From: Shimia sp. CNT1-13L.2
GTDB taxonomy: Bacteria > Pseudomonadota > Alphaproteobacteria > Rhodobacterales > Rhodobacteraceae
Length of the DNA stretch: 64,000 bases
Assembly (NCBI RefSeq): GCF_024331145.1
Contig: NZ_JANDJO010000002.1
Location: 62,001-126,000, forward strand
Direction: 5' to 3'
The translations under genes and the position numbers were made by a program. The notes beneath the pieces were generated by a model. The model made no database searches. It was not told the origin of the DNA and worked only from the letters and a program-made list of their open reading frames with translations. Shown here in pieces: positions 2-14,046 of the stretch; positions within the stretch are counted from its first letter, which is position 1; each line of letters starts with the position of its first letter.

Positions 2-1720
2 ATGGGCTACGTCTTCGAAGAGCTGGTCCGCAAGTTCAACGAACAAGCCAACGAAGAAGCTGGGGATCACTTCACCCCGCGCGAGGTCATCCGTCTGATG
101 GCCCACCTCATGTATACTCAGGATGAAGACGTCTACACACCCGGCATCGCGCGCACGATCTATGACCCGACCTGCGGGACCGGCGGCATGCTCTCAGTGT
201 CTGAGGAATACATCCGCGAACAAAACCCCCAAGCCAACCTCATCCTCTATGGCCAGGAATACAACGCCGAGTCCTACGCGATTTGTTGTTCTGACCTGCT
301 CATCAAGGATGAGCCGATCGACAATATCCGCTTCGGTGACACGTTGGGCGACGGAAAGACCGAAGACGGCCACCCGGACAAGAAATTCCACTACATGATG
401 GCCAACCCACCCTTTGGCGTGGAATGGAAAACTCAGCAATCCATCGTTCAGAAAGAGGCCGATGCGCTCGGCTTCTCGGGCCGCTTTGGCGCGGGTACGC
501 CGCGCATCAATGACGGTGCGCTTCTGTTCCTTCAAACCATGATCAGCAAGATGCGACCCAGCCCCGAGATCGGCGGTGATGGCTCCAAAATAGCCATTGT
601 CTTCAATGGCTCACCCCTCTTCACTGGCGATGCCGGTTCAGGCGAAAGCAACATCCGCCGTTGGATCATTGAAAACGACTGGCTCGACGCGATCATCGCG
701 CTGCCGGATCAGATGTTCTATAACACCGGGATTTTCACCTACATCTGGATTGTCTCGAACCGCAAACGCCCCGAGCGCCGCGGCAAGGTGCAGCTGATCG
801 ACGGCACCAAGCATTTCCTGAAGATGCGTAAGAGCCTGGGTAACAAGCGTAATGAGCTCGGCGATGGCGAGGACGGGAAGCCAGACCATATCGGCGATAT
901 CACGCGCCTCTATGCCGGCTTCAAACACGATGACACCTCGAGCGTCATAATCGACGGCGAGACCAAAGAGCGGATCTGTTCCAAGATCTTCGACAACCGC
1001 GACTTCGGCTATCTCAAAATCACGGTCGAACGCCCGCTCAAACTGAACTTCCAGGCCAACGCGGAACGCATCGCTCGGCTTGCGGGCGAAAATGCTTTTG
1101 TCAAACTGGCACAGAGCAAAAAGCGCAAGGACAGCGCCGCCATCGCGGCGGAGGAAGAGGCAGGCAAAGCACTACAGGCCCAGATCATTGCTGTGCTGGA
1201 AGGCATGCCCGATACGCTAGTCAAGAACCGTGCAGACTTCATCAAAACGCTGAACGCCGCGTTCAAAACCGCAGGCATCAAACTCGAAGCGCCGATCCGC
1301 AAGGCGATCCTCAGCGCGCTGTCGGAACGGGATGAGACCGCCGACACCTGCACCGACGCCAAAGGCAATCCTGAGCCGGATACTGAGCTGCGCGATACCG
1401 AACTGGTGCCGCTGCCCAAGGATATCGAACTGCCCATGCTGAACGTTCCTGAGGTCGAAGACGATGAGCCTCAGCCACTGACTGACGGCGATTTGCCTGA
1501 TCTCGTGAAAAGTCATGTAGAGACCTATCTCGCTGCCGAGGTGCATCCGCATGTGCCCGACGCCTGGGTCGAACACAAGAAGACCAAAATGGGCTACGAA
1601 ATCCCGCTGAACCGGCATTTCTACGTCTACAAGCCGCCGCGCAAGCTGGAGAAGATCGAAAAAGATATCGAGGATATCACCCGCGACATCATGGAAATGC
1701 TTAAGGGGATCACCGCATGA
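2..1720 (+). CDS. hsdM: Type I restriction-modification DNA methyltransferase subunit (5' part outside window)
   Basis: This is the modification subunit of a type I system; with HsdS it methylates adenine at the recognition sequence using S-adenosylmethionine. The visible 572 residues begin at the stretch with HFTPREV (about 23-29) that normally lies some 150 residues into HsdM, so the N-terminal helical domain is cut off by the window edge. The SAM-binding motif DPTCGTGGML is at 55-64 and the catalytic NPPF at 135-138. The C-terminal part is rich in charged helices and acidic residues. The stop overlaps the hsdS start as ATGA, so the two are translationally coupled. Family assignment is secure; the true start cannot be seen. 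Confidence 0.95.
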   Translation: MGYVFEELVRKFNEQANEEAGDHFTPREVIRLMAHLMYTQDEDVYTPGIARTIYDPTCGTGGMLSVSEEYIREQNPQANLILYGQEYNAESYAICCSDLLIKDEPIDNIRFGDTLGDGKTEDGHPDKKFHYMMANPPFGVEWKTQQSIVQKEADALGFSGRFGAGTPRINDGALLFLQTMISKMRPSPEIGGDGSKIAIVFNGSPLFTGDAGSGESNIRRWIIENDWLDAIIALPDQMFYNTGIFTYIWIVSNRKRPERRGKVQLIDGTKHFLKMRKSLGNKRNELGDGEDGKPDHIGDITRLYAGFKHDDTSSVIIDGETKERICSKIFDNRDFGYLKITVERPLKLNFQANAERIARLAGENAFVKLAQSKKRKDSAAIAAEEEAGKALQAQIIAVLEGMPDTLVKNRADFIKTLNAAFKTAGIKLEAPIRKAILSALSERDETADTCTDAKGNPEPDTELRDTELVPLPKDIELPMLNVPEVEDDEPQPLTDGDLPDLVKSHVETYLAAEVHPHVPDAWVEHKKTKMGYEIPLNRHFYVYKPPRKLEKIEKDIEDITRDIMEMLKGITA

Positions 1721-2970
1721 GCTACGCCCCTTATCCGGCATACAAGGACAGTGGCGTCCCTTGGCTTGGGCACGTGCCTGAAGAGTGGATGGTTGCACCG
1801 CTGAGGAGGTTTCTTCGTGTGCAGAGCGGCGACATCATTTCAAAAGACAAGGAAACGGATGAAGGGGTTCCTATCTACGGAGGGAACGGCATTCGAGGCT
1901 ACACGGATGAACCAAACACTCAAGGGCCGCTGATCCTCATTGGTCGCGTCGGAGCCCACTGTGGGAACGTGCATATTGCTCAAGGTCCACTATGGGCATC
2001 TGAACATGCATTTCGGGTGTACAAAAATCAGCCTTTTGAAATTGAGTTTTTTGCGTACCTGATCGAGAGCTTGAATCTCAATCAGTTTGCCATCCGGACA
2101 GCACAGCCGCTTTTGAACTCCTCAATTGTTGCTGAGCAAGTTGTGTCTGTGCCGTCCATCGAAGAACAAACCGCCATTGCGGATTTCTTGGATAAGAAGA
2201 CGGCCGAGATTGATGATCTGATCGCCAAGAAGGAAGAGCTTCTGCGCCTTCTGGCCGAACAACGCACAGCGCTGATCACTCACGCCGTCACCAAAGGCCT
2301 CAATCCTAACGCCCCCATGAAACCCAGCGGCATCGACTGGCTCGGTGACGTGCCAGAGGGGTGGGAAGTTAAGCCGCTTAAGTTCCTTGGGCGTTTTCAG
2401 AACGGCATCAGTATTGGCGGCGACAGCTTCGGATCCGGCTTTCCGTTCGTCAGCTATGGCGACGTATACAAGAACCTCAGCTTGCCCGAGACCGGCAGCG
2501 GATTGGTCGAATCAACAGCGAAGGACCGTGTTCTTTACTCAGTTGAACACGGCGATATCTTCTTTACGCGCACATCTGAAACGATTGAAGAAATCGCGAT
2601 CTCCTCGGTCTGCGAGACAACTATACCTGACGCCGTCTTTGCCGGTTTTCTCATCCGATGTCGCCCCTATCCAAAGCGATTGGACGTTGGATTTTCCAAA
2701 TACTATTTCAGAAACAGCAGGCTGCGCGACTATTTCGTCAAGGAGATGAATCTGGTGACGCGTGCATCACTGGGCCAGACGTTGCTGGGCAATCTGATGG
2801 TCGCCTTGCCACCCCTTGATGAACAAGAGCATATTTCTGTGTTTTTGGATGAGAAACTTGAGGACCTCGCAAAGGTTGAAGCTGACACCCGCACTTCGAT
2901 CCGACTACTGAATGAATACAGAACCTCAATCATCACCAGCGCAGTGACCGGTAAGATCAAGGTTGCGTAG
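1717..2970 (+). CDS. hsdS: Type I restriction-modification specificity subunit
   Basis: HsdS sets the DNA sequence recognised by the type I complex. The 417-residue protein has the expected two-fold internal repeat. Each half opens with a related segment ending WLG(H/D)VPE(E/G)W (near residues 15-25 and 205-215), followed by a target-recognition domain. Each half ends with a conserved helical spacer (about 148-194 and 370-415) containing EQ, a FLD(K/E)K segment and TSAVT- or THAVT-like endings. The two recognition domains differ, so the site should be bipartite and asymmetric. The gene starts inside the hsdM stop and is followed two bases later by the next gene of the operon. Confidence 0.95.
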   Translation: MSYAPYPAYKDSGVPWLGHVPEEWMVAPLRRFLRVQSGDIISKDKETDEGVPIYGGNGIRGYTDEPNTQGPLILIGRVGAHCGNVHIAQGPLWASEHAFRVYKNQPFEIEFFAYLIESLNLNQFAIRTAQPLLNSSIVAEQVVSVPSIEEQTAIADFLDKKTAEIDDLIAKKEELLRLLAEQRTALITHAVTKGLNPNAPMKPSGIDWLGDVPEGWEVKPLKFLGRFQNGISIGGDSFGSGFPFVSYGDVYKNLSLPETGSGLVESTAKDRVLYSVEHGDIFFTRTSETIEEIAISSVCETTIPDAVFAGFLIRCRPYPKRLDVGFSKYYFRNSRLRDYFVKEMNLVTRASLGQTLLGNLMVALPPLDEQEHISVFLDEKLEDLAKVEADTRTSIRLLNEYRTSIITSAVTGKIKVA

Positions 2971-2972
2971 CT

Positions 2973-3557
2973 ATGACCATCAATGCTCAAGGCTATTTCA
3001 ACCAGCTGCAAACCCAGCTTTCAGACAAATATTGCGTGTTGCCCAACGACGATGGGCAGCTAGTACTTTCCGAAAAACCTGAACCAGAGTCCCCCAAGCA
3101 AACCGTTCGCTTCACGTTTTCCGGTACAGCTCTGGCGGTCAAGCTCGATAAATTCCAAGCGCCTCTGTTCCATTTCTTGGAAAACAAAGGGCATCCTTGG
3201 TCGAAACGCTGCGACTTCGTTGTGTTCCATTGCCGGCGAAATGCCGTGCGGGCCTATTGCATCGAATTCAAAACTGCGCGCACTAATATCCCGGTCGATA
3301 AAGTGATCCCGCAGCTGAATGCAGGCCACCATTGGTGCGAGTCGCTTCACAACACGATCCGGAATTACACGGCATCGAAACGGCGTCTTCAGGTTTCAAA
3401 ATACCTCTTCACCGCGAGCCTAGATCCTTCTGCCGTTTTGGATCCAACCGGGCGCTACCTTTTGAAGGATACGTCAATTCGACATTACAACTTTGATGAA
3501 GTTGATAGGATGGACTTGGACGACATGGAAAATGACCATGTGTATACTGTTAGTTGA
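2973..3557 (+). CDS. Uncharacterised PD-(D/E)XK-like protein between hsdS and hsdR
   Basis: I do not recognise a named family. The 194-residue soluble protein starts two bases after hsdS and ends nine bases before the preferred hsdR ATG, so it is an in-operon insertion into a standard hsdMSR order. Residues 80-100 read as a beta strand with D81, then a second strand ending IEFK with E98 and K100, followed by Q114. This is the D-x(n)-E-x-K arrangement of PD-(D/E)XK nuclease folds. No signal peptide or membrane segment is seen. It may be a diverged nuclease, a structural derivative, or an accessory factor of the restriction complex. The gene call is firm; the function is inference. Confidence 0.85.
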   Translation: MTINAQGYFNQLQTQLSDKYCVLPNDDGQLVLSEKPEPESPKQTVRFTFSGTALAVKLDKFQAPLFHFLENKGHPWSKRCDFVVFHCRRNAVRAYCIEFKTARTNIPVDKVIPQLNAGHHWCESLHNTIRNYTASKRRLQVSKYLFTASLDPSAVLDPTGRYLLKDTSIRHYNFDEVDRMDLDDMENDHVYTVS

Positions 3558-3565
3558 TTGATATT

Positions 3566-6500
3566 ATGAGCAAACACACCGAAATCCGTTTTGAAGATGC
3601 TATCACCGAAAGCCTGACCACGGCGGGCGGATATGCCTTGGGCGACCCCGACGGCTTTGATGCCGAGCGCGGTTTGTTCCCAGATGAGGTCATCGCTTTC
3701 ATCGAGGCGACACAGGCTAAACGTTGGGCCAGCCTACAGGAGTTCCACGGCGACCGGGCTAAGATTGCACTGCTGGACTCGCTCTGCAAAGAGCTGTCGG
3801 CCAAAGGCTCACTGCATGTGCTGCGCCATGGGTTCAAGTGTTTCGGCAAGACGTGGAAGCTAGCCTATTTCGCGCCCGCTTCGGGCATGAACCCCGACGC
3901 GTTGGCCGACTATGCTGCCAACCGCCCGACCGCCACGCGGCAGGTGCATTTCGACCCCAAGCAAAAGGGCCTCTCGCTTGATCTGGTGCTGTCGGTGAAC
4001 GGCCTGCCCATCGTGACGATGGAATTGAAAAACCAGATGTCAGGCCAGACGGTCGAACATGCCAAGAAGCAATACAAGTTCGACCGTGATCCGACCTGTC
4101 CGATTTTCCGTTTCAAGGAACGCGCCCTGGTGCATTTCGCGGTTGATACCGATCTGGCCTATATGACCACGCGGCTGAGCGGGTCAAAAACTGTGTTCCT
4201 GCCTTTCAACAAGGGGCATGGGAACGGCGCGGGCAACCCGCCGGATGAAGACAATTATCGCACCGCCTATCTGTGGGAAGAGGTCCTGACCAAGGATAGC
4301 CTGATGGATATCCTGGCGCGTTTCTTGCATCTGGAGGTGAAGGAAACCAAAGTTGTGACCTCGCGCGGGATCAAGACCTCCCGCAAGGAAACGATGATCT
4401 TCCCGCGTTATCATCAGCTGGATTCGGTGCGGAAGCTGGTCGCCGATGCCAAGATGCAGGGGCCGAGCCACAACTACCTGATTCAACATTCTGCCGGGTC
4501 CGGTAAATCCAACTCGATCGCCTGGTTGGCACATCGCTTGTCGAGCCTGCACGATGAGAATGACCAGAAAGTTTTCAGCACTGTGATCGTGATCACCGAT
4601 CGCCGCGTGCTGGACCAACAGCTGCAAGACACGATCTATCAGTTCGAGCACAAGCAAGGTGTGGTCGAGAAGATCGACGAGAACACCCAGCAGTTGGCCA
4701 AAGCTTTGTCTGGTGGTGTGCCGATCGTAATAACCACGATCCAGAAATTCCCGTTCATCGCGCAGGCATTGGACACGTTGTCTAGGAAGGGCGAAAGCGT
4801 TCAGATCGATACGACCGGCAAGAGCTTTGCCGTGATCGTGGACGAGGCGCACAGTTCCCAAAGCGGCGAGACCGCCATGGAACTGCGCAAGGTACTGAAC
4901 CGCGAAGGCATCGCGGCCACTATCGCCGAACAGATCATTGACGATGAGGAGGAGCAGAACCTTTCGGATGACGCGAAAGAAGCACTGTTCCAAGAGATGC
5001 TAAAGCGCCCCCGCCAGAAGAACATCAGCTTTTTCGCGTTCACCGCGACGCCGAAGTACAAGACGCTGGCCGTTTTCAATGAGCCTGGACCGAACGGGAA
5101 GCCACCGTTTCATCATTACTCTATGAGGCAAGCCATCGAAGAAGGCTTCATCATGGACGTGCTCAGAAATTACACGACCTACAAAGCCTACTACGGGCTG
5201 ATCAAATCGATCGAAGACGACCCCGAGGTGCCGCGAAAAAAAGCCGCCAAGCAGCTTGCGCGCTTCATGAGCCTGCACCCGATCAATATTGCGCAAAAGG
5301 TGGAAGTGATCATCGAACACTTCCGCCATCACACCCGACATAAGATAGGTGGACGGGCCAAGGCTATGGTGGTCACCAGCTCGCGATTACATGCTGTGCG
5401 TTACAAGCTGGCCTTCGACAAATATGTGAAAGAAAAAGGCTACGGCGACATCAAAGCACTGGTCGCGTTTTCCGGTTCAATCAAAGACCCTGACTTTCCC
5501 GAGAAGGAATACACCGAAGTCGGGATGAACAAGGGTATGAAAGAAAGCGAGTTGCCCAAGAAGTTCAGCACCGAGGGATACCAGGTGCTGCTCGTGGCCG
5601 ATAAGTATCAGACCGGTTTTGACCAGCCTCTGCTTCACACGATGTACGTGGATAAACGCTTGTCAGGCATCCAGGCGGTACAGACGCTCTCTCGCCTCAA
5701 TCGGCGGACAGCGGGCAAAGAAGGCACGTTCGTACTGGATTTCGTGAACGAGCGCGATGAGATCTTCCAGTCATTCAAGGACTACTACGAGACAACTGAC
5801 GCTGGCGACGCGCCGGATCCACACCAGCTTTATGAGTTGCAACACTCTATCGAGGAATGGCGGATATTTGGCAGCGATGAAGTGGACCAGATTTGCGAGA
5901 TCTGGTTCAAGAACCGTAAGGAACCGACGGCTTCCGATCACCGCAACATGAACGCGCTGATTGACCTTGCAGTCGAACGGTTTGCTTCACTGGAAGAAGG
6001 TGACCGCGAATTGCTGCGCGGGAAACTGACTAGCTTCCGAAACCTCTACGCCTTCTTGTCCCAAATCGTACCGTACCAGGATTCTGAGCAGGAAAAACTC
6101 TACACCTATCTTCGGCTTCTAATCCCGAAGCTGCCGAAACGAGCAGAGGATGATCCGTTTCAACTCGGCGATGAGGTGGAGCTGCAATACTACCGGCTGC
6201 AGAAAATCAGCGAGGGTGGCATCGATCTGTCGCAAGGAGAAGCTGAACCGTTGAAAGGGCCAACAGAAGTTGGCTCCGGCGTCTCCAAGGATGAAGCCGT
6301 CCGGCTCAGCTTGCTTGTTGATACACTCAACGAGCGGTTCGGAACCGAATTCGACAAAGCAGACGAGTTGTTCTTCGATCAAGTTGTCGAGGTAGCCACA
6401 GGGAAAGAAAAACTACGGGAAGCTGCTCGAGCAAACACCCTGGACAACTTTTCTTTGGTCTTTAACTCCATGCTTGAAGGCATGTTCATTGAACGAATGG

Positions 6501-6679
6501 ATGGCAATGAAGAGATCTTTGCCAAACTGATGAATGATGATCGGTTTCGAGAGGCAGCTGCAAACGGTCTCGTAAAGCGTGTTTATGATTCAATTGTGGG
6601 AGTAAATGCCAGTTCGGACGATCCGGGCGACGACCCAGACACAGACGATCCCGGACCCATGATTGGCCGCGAGAAGTAG
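3566..6679 (+). CDS. hsdR: Type I restriction endonuclease/translocase subunit
   Basis: HsdR is the motor and nuclease of the type I complex; it translocates DNA with ATP and cleaves away from the site. The N-terminal nuclease domain shows D139 and the strand ending with ELK at about 153-155. The helicase part follows with Walker A SAGSGKS near residue 310, a DEAH box (IVDEAH) and FTATPK, then a RecA-like second lobe (DKYQTGFDQP, QTLSRLNR). The length of 1037 residues is normal. I chose ATG 3566; an in-frame TTG at 3554 would overlap the upstream stop. The acidic C-terminal tail with repeated D-D-P-G-like residues is low complexity. It is the last large gene of the hsd operon. Confidence 0.95.
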   Translation: MSKHTEIRFEDAITESLTTAGGYALGDPDGFDAERGLFPDEVIAFIEATQAKRWASLQEFHGDRAKIALLDSLCKELSAKGSLHVLRHGFKCFGKTWKLAYFAPASGMNPDALADYAANRPTATRQVHFDPKQKGLSLDLVLSVNGLPIVTMELKNQMSGQTVEHAKKQYKFDRDPTCPIFRFKERALVHFAVDTDLAYMTTRLSGSKTVFLPFNKGHGNGAGNPPDEDNYRTAYLWEEVLTKDSLMDILARFLHLEVKETKVVTSRGIKTSRKETMIFPRYHQLDSVRKLVADAKMQGPSHNYLIQHSAGSGKSNSIAWLAHRLSSLHDENDQKVFSTVIVITDRRVLDQQLQDTIYQFEHKQGVVEKIDENTQQLAKALSGGVPIVITTIQKFPFIAQALDTLSRKGESVQIDTTGKSFAVIVDEAHSSQSGETAMELRKVLNREGIAATIAEQIIDDEEEQNLSDDAKEALFQEMLKRPRQKNISFFAFTATPKYKTLAVFNEPGPNGKPPFHHYSMRQAIEEGFIMDVLRNYTTYKAYYGLIKSIEDDPEVPRKKAAKQLARFMSLHPINIAQKVEVIIEHFRHHTRHKIGGRAKAMVVTSSRLHAVRYKLAFDKYVKEKGYGDIKALVAFSGSIKDPDFPEKEYTEVGMNKGMKESELPKKFSTEGYQVLLVADKYQTGFDQPLLHTMYVDKRLSGIQAVQTLSRLNRRTAGKEGTFVLDFVNERDEIFQSFKDYYETTDAGDAPDPHQLYELQHSIEEWRIFGSDEVDQICEIWFKNRKEPTASDHRNMNALIDLAVERFASLEEGDRELLRGKLTSFRNLYAFLSQIVPYQDSEQEKLYTYLRLLIPKLPKRAEDDPFQLGDEVELQYYRLQKISEGGIDLSQGEAEPLKGPTEVGSGVSKDEAVRLSLLVDTLNERFGTEFDKADELFFDQVVEVATGKEKLREAARANTLDNFSLVFNSMLEGMFIERMDGNEEIFAKLMNDDRFREAAANGLVKRVYDSIVGVNASSDDPGDDPDTDDPGPMIGREK

Positions 6680-6685
6680 TAAGAA

Positions 6686-7102
6686 ATGACCGACACAGAA
6701 AAGAAAGCAGCGCACAAACAACGTCTGGAGCAAAAGACCGACGTTACTTCTCGGCTAAGCGAAACGACTCGGTTTGTTGCATTTGGAATTGTTGCTTGGG
6801 TTTTCGCTGTTCAGGCCTCTGACGCAGAATTCTCGAAGACCTACATCCAAACATATGAAATTTGGATCAACACAGCAGGAGCGCTGGCAGTCATATCGAT
6901 TGCGGGCGACTATTTTCAGTATCTATGCGCATATTTGTCCGTGAAGCATGCTTTGACGAGAAAGGAGCAAGGCTACAAATTCAACAGAAACCATCCCGCC
7001 TATTTTTTGCAGACGGCGTTCTTCATCATTAAGCAATTTGCCGTAGGACTTGGTTCAATTGCTATTGCCACGACCTTCGCGCTTCATGTTTTTCTGAACT
7101 AA
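6686..7102 (+). CDS. Small three-helix membrane protein downstream of hsdR
   Basis: Unrecognised 138-residue protein starting six bases after the hsdR stop, so probably the last gene of the hsd transcript. It has a charged N-terminus (residues 1-27, rich in K, E and R) and hydrophobic segments at about 29-44, 62-86 and 106-136. A basic loop lies between the second and third. There are no catalytic motifs. Membrane proteins beside restriction or defence genes sometimes act as effectors, but nothing here shows this. The position and tight spacing support a real gene; the role is unknown. Confidence 0.75.
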   Translation: MTDTEKKAAHKQRLEQKTDVTSRLSETTRFVAFGIVAWVFAVQASDAEFSKTYIQTYEIWINTAGALAVISIAGDYFQYLCAYLSVKHALTRKEQGYKFNRNHPAYFLQTAFFIIKQFAVGLGSIAIATTFALHVFLN

Positions 7103-7198
7103 GCCATCCTTGCAATCCGAAAGCTTAACCCAATTACTAATGGCTGAACGGTGACCTGCTACCCTAACAGCTTCACGACAGGAGAGAAAACTCGAGCC

Positions 7199-8335
7199 AT
7201 GTTCCGCGTTGACTTGAACCAAAATCGATTGTCCCGACTGTCCCAGAAGCGCTTTGCAGATTTGAATCTTCGCGAGCGAGATCACTTGCAGGAATGGCTG
7301 GCCAACCAGCCTGACGCGCTTGGTGAGGAGTTGTTGATCATTCAGAAAGAGTTCGACGGGTTCGATGAAACCCGCGAACGGCTAGACCTTCTTGCGCTAG
7401 ACAAGGATGGCAACCTTGTTGTGATCGAAAATAAGCTGGATGACAGCGGGCGCGATGTGGCTTGGCAGGCGCTAAAATACACCGCGTACGTGTCTGGTCT
7501 AACCAAGACCCAGATTGTCGATATCTACCAGCAATACCTCGATCGCTATGCTGGCGGCGGAAATGCTGCCGTTCGGCTCTGCGAATTCATGGAAGTGGAG
7601 GAGCTGGAAGAAACAGTGCTGAACCCTGGCAACGATCAGCGAATGATCTTTATTGCCGCCAATTTCCGTCGTGAGGTCACAGCGACGGTTCTATGGCTCT
7701 TGAGCCGTGGGATCCGGGCGCAGTGTTTTAAGGTAACGCCTTATGCTTTCGGGGATGAATTGATGGTCGATATTCAACAGATTATTCCTACGCCGGAAGC
7801 CGCCGACTTCATGATTGGAATGTCGAGCAAAGAAAACGAAGAGAAGGCGATCCAAGACACGCAGAAGAAGCGGCACAAGCTGCGCTTAGAATTCTGGGAA
7901 GCTGCCCTCGAACAGCTTCGTGTCGATGGGGTTACGCTCTACCAGAATATCAGCCCGACGAAGGACCATTGGCTAAGTGCTGGGTCCGGCACGAGGTCCT
8001 GCCCTTATCAAATGATTTTCTCGAGAGACGAGGCACGTGTGGAGATCAGCTTTCAGCGCTCTGAAACCTCAGAAAACAAATGGCTCTTCGATCAGCTCTA
8101 CAGTCAAAGGGACGCAATCCAAGCGGCATTCGGCGCTGAACTCGATTGGCGGAGGATGGACAACAAGAAAGCCAGCCGTATCGTTTACGCTCAACCCTTT
8201 GACGGCTTCAACCGCGAAGCTTGGCCCGAAATGATTGCCTGGCTGGCCACGCATATTCAGATGTTGGAAGCAGCGTTTAGCGAACCACTATCCCGCCTGA
8301 ACCGCGAGGTCCGCTCTAAAGACGAAGCAATTTAG
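7199..8335 (+). CDS. DUF4268-type protein with N-terminal PD-(D/E)XK nuclease-like domain
   Basis: This 378-residue protein resembles the DUF4268 proteins found in restriction and defence islands. The N-terminal half has a nuclease-fold signature: D63 in a RLDLLALD strand, E77 and K79 in VIENK, then Q90-A-L-K-Y94, the Q-x3-Y helix common in PD-(D/E)XK proteins. The C-terminal half (about 215-370), with W-rich aromatic stretches, fits DUF4268. I start at ATG 7199, preceded by GACAGGAGAG; a GTG at 7151 is in frame but lacks such a site. It follows the hsd operon after 96 bases and may have its own promoter. The nuclease activity is inferred from residues only. Confidence 0.85.
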   Translation: MFRVDLNQNRLSRLSQKRFADLNLRERDHLQEWLANQPDALGEELLIIQKEFDGFDETRERLDLLALDKDGNLVVIENKLDDSGRDVAWQALKYTAYVSGLTKTQIVDIYQQYLDRYAGGGNAAVRLCEFMEVEELEETVLNPGNDQRMIFIAANFRREVTATVLWLLSRGIRAQCFKVTPYAFGDELMVDIQQIIPTPEAADFMIGMSSKENEEKAIQDTQKKRHKLRLEFWEAALEQLRVDGVTLYQNISPTKDHWLSAGSGTRSCPYQMIFSRDEARVEISFQRSETSENKWLFDQLYSQRDAIQAAFGAELDWRRMDNKKASRIVYAQPFDGFNREAWPEMIAWLATHIQMLEAAFSEPLSRLNREVRSKDEAI

Positions 8336-8423
8336 TTCCGTTTCTCAGGTCTTGGGCGATAAGCAAATATGAGCCCTTCCTCGCGTTCATGATTGAAAGG
8401 TCGCCGGTTGTGGAGACCTTAGC

Positions 8424-8473
8424 AGGAGGGGGTAATGCTTAAAATTGAAAAGAAAATAGATACACTGCCGTGA
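8424..8473 (+). promoter_or_regulatory. Strong ribosome site and 12-codon leader ORF coupled to the polymerase-like gene
   Basis: A near-perfect Shine-Dalgarno run (AGGAGGGGG, 8424-8432) sits before an ATG at 8435 that opens a 12-codon frame, MLKIEKKIDTLP. Its TGA stop (8471-8473) overlaps the GTG start (8470-8472) of the next gene as GTGA. The large gene has no comparable ribosome site of its own. Translation of the leader followed by re-initiation at GTG is the simplest reading. It might alternatively be a regulatory leader peptide. Confidence 0.55.
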
Positions 8474-9876
8474 ATGCCCGCCCTTATGACCCACAATGGA
8501 CGACTGACAGTCCGACCTTGTCGGAGTGTTTGGATAGCTTGTGCGCGGAACTAACCAGTGCGCAAACGGGGAAGCGAAAGCGGAGAAGGGATGCCCAACC
8601 ACGATTCGAAGCTGCTGTGAAGGCTATTGCCCTAGATCTTTTCAGGGCACATCAGAGCGATCCTGCTTTGGAAGTGGGGATTGCAACCGGCTGGACTGCA
8701 CTACAGCGGAAGAGCAAGTCTAGATACGGAGCCAGCTTCATATCGGCCCGTACCTTCACCGACGCGATGGAAGTACTAGAAACATCTGGCTTGATAGCGT
8801 TGAGCACTCCACATTGGGACGATCCGGCCAACAGACACAGCCGTGTGGCCCGTTACATGGCATCTCCTGCCCTACTTGGTCGTTTTCAGAACGTAGGCGC
8901 ATCTGTGGTCGATCTTCGGAGGAACGAGACTGCAGAAGGTATTCGGCTTAAGGATTCCAAAAAGCGTTTGGTCGAGTATGGCGATAACGGTTTCGCCAAC
9001 AACGCGCGTGGCAAGTTGCGGATCATAAATGATATGCTTGAAAGCCATTGGGCGGATATTGCACTGACAAATGAGCAACTTGCCGCAGAGTTGAAGCGCA
9101 TTTCCAGAAACCGGGAGGATGAAGCTGCTCAGTCTTTTGACTTCGCTGCGCGTACCGTGCACCGCGTCTTCAACAACGACGATTGGGAGCAGGGCGGGCG
9201 CTTTTATGGTGCTTGGTGGATGAGTTGTCCAAGTAGGCTTAGGCCCTACATACTGATCGACGGGAAGCGCACGGTTGAGGTGGACTACGCGGGGCTGCAC
9301 GCAGCCATGCTCTATGCGCTAGAGGGCTTGCCCATTCCAGATGATCCCTATCAGCGATGCTTGGCTCACGCGGGGAACAAGGCAGAGCGGCGACTGGTCA
9401 AGCGAACTTTCAACGCGCTCCTTAACGCTGACGGGGTGCAGGGTATCAACGAGATTGAAGGTTACACGGCGGACCTGACGGGCCGACAGTGGAATGAGTT
9501 CAAGCAGTTTGTCGTCAGTAGCTATCCCGAGTTCGAACGGCACTTCGGTTCAGGTGTCGGGCTAAAATTGCAGCGCAAGGATAGTGATCTGGCCGAGGCC
9601 GTTATGCTGAAGTTCGCGGCGATGGGCTATTCCTGCCTTCCTGTCCATGACAGCTTTATTGTCCATCACGGGCTAGAACAGGACCTTGCAAACGCGATGA
9701 ATAGCGCATTTCACGCGGAGTTCGGTATCGACAGCAAGGTCGGTGTTGATGTTGGACTTGGTGAAACTGTTGAAGGTGGTGGCTCGCATATTGAGGCTGA
9801 CATAGGAGAACTACTTAACCCAACTGGCTATGAGGCGAGATTGACCGCATACCGGCTAAACCATGGTGTTGCGTGA
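8470..9876 (+). CDS. Protein with family A / T7-like polymerase palm motifs, function unknown
   Basis: I know no named family for this 468-residue protein. Its second half carries three spaced motifs matching the palm and fingers of single-subunit polymerases. Motif A-like VEVDYAGLH has D272. RRLVKRTFNALLN (307-319) fits the R-R-x-x-K O-helix of DNA polymerase I with K311, but has N319 where Tyr is usual. Motif C-like PVHDSFIV has H393-D394. The N-terminal half looks helical with a winged-helix-like piece near 85-115; there is no exonuclease or 5' nuclease domain. The GTG start is coupled to a 12-codon leader. It faces the integrase, so it may serve replication or mobility of the element. Motif reading is mine and not searched. 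Confidence 0.8.
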   Translation: MNARPYDPQWTTDSPTLSECLDSLCAELTSAQTGKRKRRRDAQPRFEAAVKAIALDLFRAHQSDPALEVGIATGWTALQRKSKSRYGASFISARTFTDAMEVLETSGLIALSTPHWDDPANRHSRVARYMASPALLGRFQNVGASVVDLRRNETAEGIRLKDSKKRLVEYGDNGFANNARGKLRIINDMLESHWADIALTNEQLAAELKRISRNREDEAAQSFDFAARTVHRVFNNDDWEQGGRFYGAWWMSCPSRLRPYILIDGKRTVEVDYAGLHAAMLYALEGLPIPDDPYQRCLAHAGNKAERRLVKRTFNALLNADGVQGINEIEGYTADLTGRQWNEFKQFVVSSYPEFERHFGSGVGLKLQRKDSDLAEAVMLKFAAMGYSCLPVHDSFIVHHGLEQDLANAMNSAFHAEFGIDSKVGVDVGLGETVEGGGSHIEADIGELLNPTGYEARLTAYRLNHGVA

Positions 9877-10005: not shown

Positions 10006-10044
10006 GGCGCTCCCCCCTCATTACTGGTAACGATAAGGAGCGCC
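10006..10044. repeat. Inverted repeat at the 3' end of the integrase gene
   Basis: GGCGCTCC (10006-10013) and GGAGCGCC (10037-10044) form a perfect 8-bp inverted repeat around a 23-base loop. It lies nine bases beyond the integrase stop and in the convergent space after the polymerase-like gene. There is no T-run, so it is a weak terminator candidate or a protein-binding site. The rest of the 9877-10052 gap shows nothing else. Confidence 0.4.
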
Positions 10045-10052
10045 GAGCCGGT

Positions 10053-11633
10053 TCAGACCTGAAACCGGCCGATGGCCTCTTTGAGCTGGGCCAACGTGTA
10101 GCCTTCGCGGTTGTAAACCTCCTGCGTGACGCCAGAGCGCGCGTGGCCGACTATGCATTGCACAATGGGTTCGGGAACATCTGCTTGGCTCAGTCGCGTT
10201 ACTACAGTGTGCCGCAGGCTATGGAAAACAAGGCCTGGCTGCTTGATCCCCAGCTTGGGTAAGAAACTCTCATTGCACCAGCGGCCTAAGTTGCGGCCAT
10301 AGCCGCCATTGGCGCTGTAGCTGTAGTCAGGAAACAGCCGTGTGCCATTGCGGCGGCTGTCCACGAAGTCAAGAAAGCCAAGGCTGATCAAATCTGAATG
10401 CAGCGGCACCTTGCGCCTTCCTGCTTTCGACTTGATGCGCTTATTATCGTCGCCTTCGTCCGTGATATTCAGAAACCATGTGTCGCCGTCTTGCTGCACG
10501 TCTGCAATGTCGAGTTGGCAAATCTCGTTCAGTCGTGCCCCGGTAAACATTCCCAAGAGCATTCCCCATTTGTGGCTGTCTTTGCGCACCAGCCCTGACG
10601 GCTTCTCCGTCAACGCGCTGTAGATCAACTGCGCCTGATCCGGTGTGAAAGGCTTCCGCTCGCTGTCGCTGGCTTTGTCCTTCCGTACCTTCATTCCTTC
10701 AAAGAGCGTGTGCGGCGCATGTCCGTGCCGCTCCGCCCAGTCGAAGAACATCTTGAACATCTGAATATGGCTGTTGATCGTCTTCGCCGCGATCTTCTTG
10801 TGACCGGGTTCCTTGATGACCTGCATCAACGGCATTGCCTTCAACTTGGGTTTGGTGTTCCGGCTGGACGGTAGCGCCTGTAAGACTTTCTTAACCTCGC
10901 TCGCATCCTGCTTGGTGATCGTGGCAAGCAGCCGGTCAGGACCAAAGAACTCAACAAGAATGCTTAGGTAGGCGCGATTCTGACTAGTCGTCTTTGAGGT
11001 CCATTGTCGCGAATGCTCTGTGATGAAGTCCTCTATCGTCGAGCCTAGGGATGAAGATGCTGGTAAAGCGCTAGCTGAGCGGGCACTGGGTCGCACTGGA
11101 ACTTCGTCGAATGAATAATGCTCTAGTTTCTCGGCTGCTTCTAGGACGCGTTTGAGCATGTCTCTGCGCCCTTTTCTTAACTCAATGGATATACCGGGAA
11201 GACTGGCATTCCACTCGTCATCAGAAATCTGCATCTTTCGTTTAAATCGAGCGATCGGCAGGTATTGGGGATTCAGACTTTCGATGTCCACCATGCAGCC
11301 ATGGTCCAACATCTCTTCCCGTGCATCTGCCAGTGCATTCTTTGAAATGCCGTAGCAGTGTAGACGGTCGAGATACTGTTCCAATTGGGCCTTAAAATAT
11401 GCTTTCACCCTGTCGCGTATCTCATCTTGCCTTAAGCGTGCCAATGCGTTGTTCTCACTGATAACTTTTCCACAAGATGCAAGATAGCGTGCAAGATCAC
11501 CAGCTTGTTTTGGGCAACATGTTCTCAGCGATAGCCTTACACTTCCTCTAGAAGGGGCACTTAGGGAATGGAGGGGCCAGCGGAAGTAATAAATCCCATG
11601 TCGAGACTTCGATAAGTAAGTTGGCATCTTCAT
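10053..11633 (-). CDS. Tyrosine site-specific integrase of the genomic island
   Basis: A phage-type tyrosine recombinase of about 526 residues that would integrate and excise the island. The N-terminal third resembles the short SAM-independent N-terminal domains of alphaproteobacterial island integrases (a YYFRWPL-like strand near the start). A core-binding domain is in the middle. Catalytic residues are visible in GARLNEI (first Arg, about residue 365), the KAGRRKVPLH strand with Lys, HSLRHT (His-x-x-Arg), GHARSG (second His) and the Tyr in EVYNREGY. I prefer ATG 11633; a GTG at 11651 and an ATG at 11627 are alternatives. The gene sits 70 bases from the 3' end of tRNA-Cys, the usual arrangement for tRNA-targeted islands. 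Confidence 0.93.
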   Translation of the reverse strand: MKMPTYLSKSRHGIYYFRWPLHSLSAPSRGSVRLSLRTCCPKQAGDLARYLASCGKVISENNALARLRQDEIRDRVKAYFKAQLEQYLDRLHCYGISKNALADAREEMLDHGCMVDIESLNPQYLPIARFKRKMQISDDEWNASLPGISIELRKGRRDMLKRVLEAAEKLEHYSFDEVPVRPSARSASALPASSSLGSTIEDFITEHSRQWTSKTTSQNRAYLSILVEFFGPDRLLATITKQDASEVKKVLQALPSSRNTKPKLKAMPLMQVIKEPGHKKIAAKTINSHIQMFKMFFDWAERHGHAPHTLFEGMKVRKDKASDSERKPFTPDQAQLIYSALTEKPSGLVRKDSHKWGMLLGMFTGARLNEICQLDIADVQQDGDTWFLNITDEGDDNKRIKSKAGRRKVPLHSDLISLGFLDFVDSRRNGTRLFPDYSYSANGGYGRNLGRWCNESFLPKLGIKQPGLVFHSLRHTVVTRLSQADVPEPIVQCIVGHARSGVTQEVYNREGYTLAQLKEAIGRFQV

Positions 11634-11702
11634 GACGGTATGGTGTCTCACTTTGTGTCACACCCGACGCCAAAGCCTGTAACCGTCTGATTTAGAAGAA
11701 AA

Positions 11703-11776
11703 TGGAGGCGAGTACCGGAATCGAACCGGTGTACACGGATTTGCAATCCGCTGCGTCACCACTCCGCCAACTCGCC
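11703..11776 (-). tRNA. tRNA-Cys (anticodon GCA), probable island attachment site
   Basis: On the minus strand the 74 bases fold as a full cloverleaf. A 7-bp acceptor stem (GGCGAGT with ACTCGCC) is followed by discriminator T and an encoded CCA. The anticodon loop TTGCAAA reads GCA on a GCGGA/TCCGT stem, and the T arm contains the GGTTCGATTCC loop. U73 and GCA are diagnostic for cysteine. The integrase gene begins just past its 3' end, so the 3' half is the likely attB core; I found no second copy of that half in the window. Confidence 0.96.
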
Positions 11777-11925
11777 GACCTTGTGGTGGAGTGGGCAATA
11801 GCTGATCTGTCGCAGGGCCGCAAGAGGCTTTGAGAGGGAAATCACGTCGCGGGACGTTGCCGCTTGGGGCGATCTGTGGCAAGACAGGCTTAATTCCCGA
11901 GTCTGAACGAACGAGTTTAGTTAAG

Positions 11926-12579
11926 ATGACCGACTACAAGACCCTTCGCACCACAATGGTAGATACACAGGTTCGTCCGGCGGATGTGACCAAATACACC
12001 GTTATCGATGCCCTGCTTGCAGTTCCAAGGGAGAATTTCGTGCCGCGTGACAAGCGTGACGCAGCCTATGTCGGGGAACATGTGACCCTGGATACCGGTC
12101 GCGTCGTGCTGGATGCGCGCTGTCTTTCGAAGATGCTGGATGCGCTGGACATTCAAAATGACGAGCTGGTCCTGGATATCGGTTCGGGCCTTGGGTATTC
12201 GGCGGCGGTTATTGCCCGCATGGCGGAAGCTGTGGTCGCGGTGGAAGACGATGAGGACCGCGTGGCCGACGCGCAGGCGGCGCTGGCCGAGTTCGGCGCG
12301 GACAACGTGATCATGCACCAGGGCGAGTTGGTGGCCGGTGCCGCTGAACATGGTCCCTATGACGTGATCGTCGTGGAAGGCGCGGTAGAAATTATGCCCG
12401 ACAGTCTGCTTGACCAGTTGAAAGAAGGCGGTCGGATCGTATCTTTGTTCATGGACGGCGCGTTGGGTGTCGTGCGTGTTGGCTACAAGATTGACGGCGT
12501 GATGAACTGGCGTCAGGCGTTCAACGCCGGTGCGCCGGTGTTGCCGGGCTTTGAAAAGCATCGGGCCTTCACGCTGTAA
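11926..12579 (+). CDS. Protein-L-isoaspartate O-methyltransferase family protein
   Basis: This 217-residue cytoplasmic protein belongs to the Pcm family, which uses S-adenosylmethionine to methylate isoaspartyl residues in damaged proteins. The Rossmann SAM-binding motif VLDIGSGLGYSAA lies at about residues 83-95, and the opening MVDTQVRPADVT-like segment is typical of the roseobacterial version. I start at ATG 11926 because the frame upstream runs back towards the tRNA without conservation. It is the first gene outside the island and precedes tolC by 45 bases in the same direction, a common pairing in the lineage. Whether it keeps true isoaspartate repair activity is not shown by sequence. 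Confidence 0.9.
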   Translation: MTDYKTLRTTMVDTQVRPADVTKYTVIDALLAVPRENFVPRDKRDAAYVGEHVTLDTGRVVLDARCLSKMLDALDIQNDELVLDIGSGLGYSAAVIARMAEAVVAVEDDEDRVADAQAALAEFGADNVIMHQGELVAGAAEHGPYDVIVVEGAVEIMPDSLLDQLKEGGRIVSLFMDGALGVVRVGYKIDGVMNWRQAFNAGAPVLPGFEKHRAFTL

Positions 12580-12624
12580 AACAATAAAGCTGCAAAGCGG
12601 CAGGACAGTAACGGGGGAGAGCGG

Positions 12625-14046
12625 ATGGCTCTGGGGTTTGCGAAATCGGTGAAAGCGGGCGTTGCAGCCCTGGCACTCATGGCGGCGGCGCCTGTCCAGG
12701 TCGCCGCAGAGACCCTTGGGGAGGCGCTGGTCAGCGCTTATAACCACAGCGGTCTTCTGCAACAGAACCGTGCCCTTCTGCGGGCAGCTGATGAAGACGT
12801 TGCCGCGACCTTTGCCTTGTTGCGCCCGGTGATTAACTGGACGGGATCGGTGGGGCGGGGATACAGCCACTTCGCAAGTCAGCAGACAGGCGGTCTGGCT
12901 CGTACCAATGCGGCTACGGAGATCGAGCTTGGCCTGAGTTTCAGCCTGCTGTTGTACGATGGCGGCGCCACCCAGGCGGCGGTTGAAGCATCCAAGCAAA
13001 CCGTTTTGGCCACACGCCAGCAGCTGGTTTCGGTTGAGCAGAATGTTCTTCTGCAAGCGGTGCAGGCCTATATGAATGTGGTGCGTGATGCGCAGATCGT
13101 CGAGCTGCGCCGCAACAACCTGCGCCTAGTATCGCGTGAGCTTCAGGCTGCGAAAGATCGTTTCGAAGTGGGGGAAGTCACCCGGACCGATGTGGCGCTT
13201 GCGGAAGCGCGCCTTGCCGGTGGGCGTGCTGAGCTCGCGGTTGCCCAAGGCAACCTGATGCAGTCGAAGGAACAATATGCGGCGGCTGTCGGGCATGCGC
13301 CGGGTGCGCTTGTTGCACCGCGTGGTGCCCCCTCGACGCCAGCACGGTCTGAAGAGGCCAAGCAGATTGCGGTACGCGGTCACCCGGACCTGCGGGCCGT
13401 GCAACATAACATCAAGGCTGCGGAATTTGGCGTGCAGCGTGCCGAAGCCGCGTTGAAGCCGACGGTGCGGCTGAATAGCGGTGTGACCTTGACCCAGGAC
13501 CTTGGGCATTCGAACTTTTATTCCAATGGCGGTTCGGTTTCTCTTGGACTGGAAGCACCGATTTATCAGGGTGGCCGTCTTTCGGCGCTGATCCGTCAGG
13601 CGATGGCCAACCGGGATGCCCAGAAGGGCAACCTGCACGTGGTGCGCCATTCGGTGCGCGAGAATGCGGGGGTTGCATGGGCGACGCTGGCCGCAGCCGG
13701 TGCGCAGTTGGAGGCAAGTGGACGTCAGATCGAGGCTTCGCGGATCGCCTTTGATGGTGTGCGCGAGGAAGCCAAACTGGGATCGCGCACGACTCTGGAT
13801 GTTTTGATTGCCGAGCAGGACCTGCTGGACGCCGAATCGAATCGCATCACCGCGCAGACCGGCAAGATCACGGCGGCCTATAGCCTGCTTGCATCCATGG
13901 GGCTTTTGACGGCGGATCATCTCAACCTCAAGGTCGAGCAATACGATCCCGAAGCCTATTATAATATGGTCAAGGATGCGCCTGCGATGAAATCCAAGCG
14001 CGGTAAGCAGCTGGATAACGTGTTGCGCGCATTGGGAAAAGAATAA
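12625..14046 (+). CDS. tolC: TolC-family outer membrane efflux protein
   Basis: A 473-residue outer-membrane channel protein for type I secretion and tripartite efflux. A Sec signal peptide ends near residue 29 (ALMAAAPVQVAAE). The mature protein shows the two-fold repeat of long amphipathic helices with beta-strand segments (WTGSVGRGYSH and VRLNSGVTLTQ) that make the 12-stranded barrel and periplasmic tunnel. The late G-x-R-T-T-L-D-V-L segment (GSRTTLDVLIAEQDL) is characteristic of TolC. The start is preceded by GGGGGAGAG. It lies downstream of the Pcm-like gene. No partner pump is adjacent; an ABC exporter lies about 5 kb away on the other strand. Confidence 0.93.
   Translation: MALGFAKSVKAGVAALALMAAAPVQVAAETLGEALVSAYNHSGLLQQNRALLRAADEDVAATFALLRPVINWTGSVGRGYSHFASQQTGGLARTNAATEIELGLSFSLLLYDGGATQAAVEASKQTVLATRQQLVSVEQNVLLQAVQAYMNVVRDAQIVELRRNNLRLVSRELQAAKDRFEVGEVTRTDVALAEARLAGGRAELAVAQGNLMQSKEQYAAAVGHAPGALVAPRGAPSTPARSEEAKQIAVRGHPDLRAVQHNIKAAEFGVQRAEAALKPTVRLNSGVTLTQDLGHSNFYSNGGSVSLGLEAPIYQGGRLSALIRQAMANRDAQKGNLHVVRHSVRENAGVAWATLAAAGAQLEASGRQIEASRIAFDGVREEAKLGSRTTLDVLIAEQDLLDAESNRITAQTGKITAAYSLLASMGLLTADHLNLKVEQYDPEAYYNMVKDAPAMKSKRGKQLDNVLRALGKE

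Follow-up and report, generated by a model that had tools for sequence, protein, structure and literature searches.

The window analysed here is a stretch of 64,000 nucleotides from Shimia sp. CNT1-13L.2 (contig NZ_JANDJO010000002.1, positions 62,001 to 126,000). The gene at positions 8470-9876 of this window encodes a polymerase of the A family, and we consider it fairly probable that its product replicates the 12.8-kb integrative element in which it lies, at a tRNA-Cys gene. An element replication protein fits best because a core polymerase, a front domain, an integrase, attachment (att) sites and a DNA element tied to the polymerase gene are found together.

Polymerase core and conserved residues

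The gene and its predicted parts are as follows.

8470..9876, + strand: A-family (divPolA2 / TV-Pol-like) polymerase, 468 residues, open reading frame with GTG start
8470..8904, + strand: N-terminal domain, residues 1-145, possibly (weakly) winged-helix-like
8905..9159, + strand: thumb-like segment, residues ~146-230, with helices 174-192 and 201-214, from the model alignment
9160..9876, + strand: palm and small fingers, residues 231-468, with hairpin R244, motif A D272, fingers D292/R307/K311 and motif C H393-D394

An earlier sequence-only reading had recognised this open reading frame and three motifs of single-subunit polymerases in it. Reading of the frame and alignment confirm all three at the named residues: motif A VEVDYAGLH (D272), motif B RRLVKRTFNALLN (R307, K311, N319) and motif C PVHDSFIV (H393, D394). 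The spacing from motif A to motif C, given as about 120 residues, is 122 when measured. From 84 matches we aligned the non-identical members of at least 380 residues, and in all 57 rows, the window protein included, R244, R258, D272, Y294, K311, H393 and D394 are invariant. The same seven residues are present in 80/80 rows of a larger alignment of sequences above 250 residues, which also served for profile-profile comparison; R307 is found in 78 and D292 in 76 of these rows. That set was partly collected through a motif-C DNA pattern, which makes its conservation of H393 and D394 partly circular. The conservation of D272 and D394, which the earlier reading had named as a check, is borne out by the 57 rows. 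Judged from the alignments, the motif conservation is not a matter of chance and the catalytic Asp pair is firm; D272 and D394 would be the two metal-binding residues of the palm.

The residues expected to sense the sugar appear to differ from those of Pol I. We take H277 and N315 to be the equivalents of Glu710 and Phe762 of Pol I, these positions and that of Tyr766 being placed via the RxxxK and motif-A registers. The Glu710-equivalent column holds His in 55 of 80 rows and Glu in none, and the Phe762-equivalent column holds Asn in 35 and Leu in 24. Asn is found in 61 rows at the Tyr766 position, in keeping with the earlier remark that N319 replaces the usual Tyr. Glu710 and Phe762 are the ribonucleotide sensors of Pol I, according to the available part of Bebel et al. 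2020 (PMC7581432). With these usual ribonucleotide-excluding residues absent, substrate choice becomes a question of enzymology.

The structural model aligns with the A-family polymerase fold, including the right-hand palm that had been foreseen, and DNA polymerases outscore RNA polymerases in the fold comparison. Strands are predicted at 231-234 and 242-246; the second contains R244, and the two may pair as a hairpin. Two helices, 174-192 and 201-214, are present in the model as a candidate thumb. Residues from ~147 onward align with PolA and T7 RNA polymerase, so that the earlier description of the N-terminal half as unrelated does not hold from there on and is left to the residues before. 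An ATAGATA-like stretch lies just 5' of the start codon (window 8440-8469) and in several clade members; it is weak and may be translational.

Profile comparison gave a mixed answer to the relationship with Pol A and T7-like enzymes suggested by the sequence-only reading. Against the host and related PolA proteins, 200 columns align in register at E 3.1e-4, though at an HH probability of only 39%, and the PolA scores exceed those of 40/40 column-permuted controls. For T7 RNA polymerase, the local hhalign alignment, which covers the region of motif C, scores above the permuted controls, and the global one does not. The window protein matches no Pfam and no NCBIfam family at E up to 1. A scan of 32 members with the same E limit gave 12 families, DNA_pol_A (PF00476) not among them, and PF00940 (T7-like RNA polymerase) has no match to the window protein above the Pfam gathering score and is found in 1/32 members at E 0.042. 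The Pfam scan of the window protein also finds no exonuclease family, as had been stated. phrog_4756 is the sole strong PHROG match (E 2e-39) and has no function attached; the second is a helix-turn-helix family at E 0.15. A PDB search by phmmer or profile returned just S-adenosylmethionine synthase, DtpM and phosphorylase at E 0.1-0.9, and identification with a known family failed by this route. A PADLOC REase_II match at E 0.025 was discarded as chance. Viral scans with the window protein and the phage HNL01 protein gave no confirmed relative.

A published relative was found all the same, contrary to the earlier statement that no characterised one was recognised; divPolA2 and the TV-Pols have both been described. 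The divPolA2 model protein AUR84708 (MG592441.1) is the open reading frame at our locus L190:2614-3906. A family profile built without AUR84708 matches its residues 20-426 at E 1.7e-38 (Z = 10000), and the search of phage records with the window protein picks up the AUR84708 locus at E 1e-4. AUR84708 stands outside the 57- and 80-row sets. It keeps both Asp, the R and the K, has Phe in place of H393, and carries Glu at the 277 position in an alignment read by eye.

A conserved DNA element behind the gene

Behind the polymerase gene, a short DNA element is found.

10013..10038, + strand: 26-bp element conserved in the window clade, candidate replication origin or recognition site
10006..10044, no strand assigned: hairpin GGCGCTCC...GGAGCGCC around the element, read by eye, with a stem in some clade members

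The sequence CTCCCTCATTACTGGTAACGATAAGG is present in one copy in 11/11 window-clade loci, the window included, with 22-26/26 matches. It lies on the same strand as the polymerase gene, 59-142 bp past the stop codon, and 2000 shuffles of the search for this 26-bp element reached at most 18 matches. The element is tied to the polymerase, because the integrase is located elsewhere in L064, L065, L066 and L148. Its flanks, read by eye, pair into a stem in some loci and not in others.

The 250 bp before and after the gene were also scanned without a guiding pattern, with scores out of 20 and, for the window clade, 10 loci (L067 left out). Downstream, the mean scores are 18.9 for the window clade (shuffled maximum 12.0), 13.8 for A3 (12.5) and 15.4 for A4 (12.6). 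Upstream they are 12.8 (12.2), 13.0 (12.5) and 12.2 (13.0), and an upstream element in the window clade is at most weak. In a fourth clade of seven loci (L173 and others) nothing was found on either side, the downstream mean of 12.3 equalling the shuffled maximum of 12.3. The sister clade A3 has its own form, by eye CCCAYTACYGGG..AAATAAGG, 23-77 bp behind 7/8 genes; seven of its eight loci score at least 13/20 (the reference scoring 20) and L150 scores 10. The A4 form, CATTACT-ATAC, is clear behind 4 of the 12 genes shown, at 16/20 or more with the reference counted among the four. Among 90 unique genes, an extended pattern is located within 160 bp downstream in 16 and upstream in none, compared with 20 of at most 4000 random stretches taken from these loci. 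Being built from the same sequences, this pattern speaks for placement and conservation and is not an independent discovery. In the window and a few other loci the element runs past the 160-base limit and so escapes the count, and the matches at L172 and L181 may be chance.

The integrative island and its linkage to integrases

The right end of the island is formed by the tRNA-Cys gene, and the island spans 12.8 kb between the att repeats.

10053..11651, - strand: tyrosine integrase, 532 residues (PF00589 E 3e-13; phrog_1 E 6.6e-45)
11703..11776, - strand: tRNA-Cys, integration target
11703..11719, + strand: right attachment repeat, the 17-bp 3' end of tRNA-Cys

The left 17-bp partner (G000:C7:60876-60892) precedes the window, occupying the bases from 1,125 to 1,109 ahead of position 1. 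A 22-base att pattern with at most two mismatches occurs at two places in the genome, both of them island ends, and ordinary chromosomal genes are read to the left of the left repeat. A search for the empty site was uninformative, since the left flank matched the host alone among 21 genus genomes.

Linkage of homologues to integrases, which the sequence-only reading had proposed to survey, is found widely. We examined 54 loci, with larger stretches fetched for 40 hand-chosen, mostly longer genome matches, using an integrase profile seeded with the window's own integrase and then iterated. A tyrosine integrase is in reach at 41/54 loci, or 39/52 after removal of two double counts, and by our reading 20 of those 39 have an integrase adjoining a gene for tRNA-Cys, -Leu, -Ser, -Ala, -Glu or -Asn. 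For comparison, the eight Pfam Phage_integrase matches in the 4.14-Mb host genome would place one in ~4% of 20-kb stretches; across 21 genomes there are 2 to 26 matches per genome, and the richest would give up to ~11%.

Other neighbours vary by locus, apart from a few clusters that recur, in a clustering made without loci L146, L149 and L086. A recombinase-like gene (median 222 residues, of the serine-resolvase type by reading) is near the polymerase in 13 loci, e.g. L168:10673-11233. A Cys/His-containing protein of 230-260 residues, a candidate partner, is found near the polymerase in six loci (L180:10450-11205, L176:10954-11697 and four others). In L158, L160, L161 and L155 a tRNA-Gln gene lies ~200-670 bp from the polymerase gene with no adjoining integrase, and this may be another attachment arrangement in that clade. 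Relatives linked to a D5 helicase were not found in the short stretches searched. One analysis of the A6 clade used 26/32 members and left out five with short or missing N-terminal parts as well as L111.

The cargo is located to the left of the polymerase gene, and the restriction genes, like the integrase and the tRNA-Cys, are as the earlier reading described them.

2..1720, + strand, starting before the window: HsdM-like methylase, cargo, read from the sequence outside the family-library scan
1717..2970, + strand: HsdS specificity subunit, cargo (PF01420 E 3.2e-23)
2973..3557, + strand: 194-residue protein, weak match to candidate defence PDC-M47B (E 3.8e-6) and PD-T4-4 (E 1.7e-5)
3554..6679, + strand: HsdR restriction subunit, cargo (PF18766, PF04313; TIGR00348 E 2.5e-61, under the model's cut-off score)
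6686..7102, + strand: 138-residue protein, no family in Pfam, NCBIfam and PADLOC scans
7151..8335, + strand: DUF4268 protein, cargo (PF14088 E 3e-40; candidate defence PDC-S11 E 6e-178)

The PDC-S11 match of the DUF4268 protein is near full-length, and weak NucS-like nuclease matches are observed too. No phage structural family was found among the proteins scanned, and neither a D5 helicase nor a replicative helicase is recognised in the island.

Spread of the family

The window protein matches 40/295 genomes drawn from the family of the host, and phrog_4756 matches 25/398 genomes drawn from its phylum and 0/14 control genomes. Seven named loci are 60-72% identical to the window protein; from their titles these are marine bacteria which we take to be of the Rhodobacteraceae type. 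By tblastn, 62/50,697 phage records match, of which 45 are Vibrio phages and 13 Aeromonas phages, and the 40 of these records that were listed are 91-146 kb long. Among plasmid records, 4/72,556 match. By these counts the family is common, while the window protein has no Pfam or NCBIfam match.

Several individual loci deserve mention. The 21-kb viral IMG/VR contig L111 carries three identical members of 422 residues at unequal spacing (3748-5013, 7095-8360 and 11754-13019), from either repeated gain or an assembly artefact. The viral-collection contig L086 has two different members (3087-4394, 436 residues; 7816-8832, 339 residues), each followed by its own clade's type of element. In the Thioclava electrotropha plasmid pTElox9 (L072:5806-8885), an IS21 istA-istB pair directly precedes a shortened polymerase gene with a 326-residue open reading frame. 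Shewanella phage KASIA has, at L069:2663-5302, a gene for a T7-like RNA polymerase at a distance of ~2 kb from its family member, and the two coexist.

Proposed function and alternatives

In element replication, the integrase would first excise the island. Recognition of island DNA would fall to the N-terminal domain, which may be a winged helix; its most likely target is the 26-bp element that follows the gene. At this element the polymerase core would then make a primer or a new strand, either de novo, as CCPol does with MP, or by extending a primer, and with dNTPs or NTPs as substrates. Host helicase and host replication proteins would serve the synthesis, and the resulting copies would be available for re-integration and transfer. 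The host would have to supply both a partner and the replicative helicase, because none is recognised in the island. Priming by the window protein is plausible by analogy with CCPol-MP. Tentatively, one can go further and imagine a single-protein initiator, primase and polymerase, in which the A-family core and a winged-helix reader start at their own 26-bp site without an element-coded helicase or SSB partner. Such a portable replicon would be common to integrative islands. To our knowledge, the copying of small integrative islands that have no plasmid-type Rep genes is largely unexplained; a polymerase encoded by one gene and paired with its own DNA site would, if true, explain it. Alongside CCPol-MP, it would be a further primase-like enzyme belonging to neither the DnaG nor the AEP type.

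The observations of the sequence-only reading, its polymerase motif set among them, are confirmed, and its interpretation is partly supported. The main rivals are a repair enzyme and an RNA polymerase. A repair, gap-filling or translesion polymerase would aid the element or phage without initiating replication. Repair has been proposed for divPolA2, and in barbaviruses the location of divPolA2 is variable while PolB holds the replication neighbourhood, as the available text of Yutin et al. 2024 (PMC11348598) has it; the lack of any exonuclease found here fits as well. The linkage of the family to integrases argues the other way, and a conserved cis element beside the gene is unexpected for a repair enzyme. 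We regard this role as unlikely.

A T7-like RNA polymerase transcribing element or phage genes is still less likely in our view. In that case the N-terminal domain would bind a promoter, the downstream element would be either such a promoter or a terminator, and the altered sugar-sensing residues are compatible with this role. However, DNA polymerases score higher in the fold comparison and give the sole full-length profile match. The position of Tyr639 in T7 RNA polymerase is Asn in 61/80 rows, AUR84708 by our own reading has Glu at the gate position, and phage KASIA has its separate T7-like RNA polymerase gene.

A role in defence, together with the island's restriction and PDC-S11 genes, is highly improbable. 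Defence genes do lie upstream in the island, and AbiE, methyltransferase or Vsr genes occur at other family loci, but no PADLOC family matches below E 0.02, the polymerase and integrase are found again and again in company that differs by locus, and phages also carry the family. Equally improbable is a retron-like structured RNA in the polymerase transcript, serving as dedicated template or partner: the element is conserved on the same strand ~20-160 bases past the stop codon and, by eye, the two arms of its stem vary in sequence but still pair at several loci. Inspection of L064, L065, L066 and L148 shows no evident stem, however, and A-family enzymes are not known to use a dedicated RNA in this manner.

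Comparison with known systems

The nearest described systems are the following; their descriptions are taken from the available parts of the cited papers. Compared with T7 and mitochondrial RNA polymerases, the window protein is about half the size, and the profile match is local to motif C and not global. divPolA2 is of the same family as the window protein: both have a palm with the catalytic residues, no exonuclease found and an unusual N-terminal domain. It was described by PSI-BLAST in Caudoviricetes phages, from barbaviruses outward; its N-terminal globular domain had no detectable similarity to known domains, and repair or RNA synthesis was proposed (Yutin et al. 2024, PMC11348598). The published set comes from tailed phages that have a regular DNA polymerase besides, whereas the window copy belongs to an island that sits at a tRNA gene of a bacterium and encodes an integrase. 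The text of that paper available to us does not mention the cis element and does not read the N-terminal domain as a winged helix. The literature searched, likewise as far as available, did not show an integrative-island branch under the divPolA2 name or a DNA element beside the gene.

TV-Pols, as described by Iyer, Abhiman and Aravind 2008 (PMC2579912), are minimal A-family polymerases of transposons and viruses; in a subset with an extra N-terminal domain, the neighbouring genes include integrases, resolvases and restriction operons. The window protein shares three of the four core traits, namely the hairpin Arg, the two Asp in the palm and the fingers Asp with RxxxK; for the fourth, a thumb of two antiparallel helices, helices 174-192 and 201-214 are candidates. 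The integrase and resolvase linkage of that subset is found in the window family too, and recombinase-like neighbours are also reported for TV-Pols (PMC2579912); the likeness to TV-Pols is by description. TV-Pols are often tied to D5 helicases, while the island has no recognised one, and their N-terminal domain is predicted to be all-helical, whereas the model of the window protein has strands too.

According to Bebel et al. 2020 (PMC7581432), CCPol of SCCmec, which is classed with the TV-Pols, primes DNA in complex with MP. A 2023 paper extended the finding to polymerase-SSB pairs in Bacillota. CCPol-MP resembles the present case in its A-family core without exonucleases, its integrating element, a likely replication module and an origin-like site nearby. 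It differs in that CCPol keeps the E710/F762 equivalents, which are H277 and N315 here, requires MP to prime, and pairs with the helicase Cch2. No MP partner is recognised in the island, where the adjoining genes encode the DUF4268 protein and the integrase, and where the 138- and 194-residue proteins were left without a structure search. The kind of protein is already known from these systems; the setting and the cis element are new, and they make its function testable.
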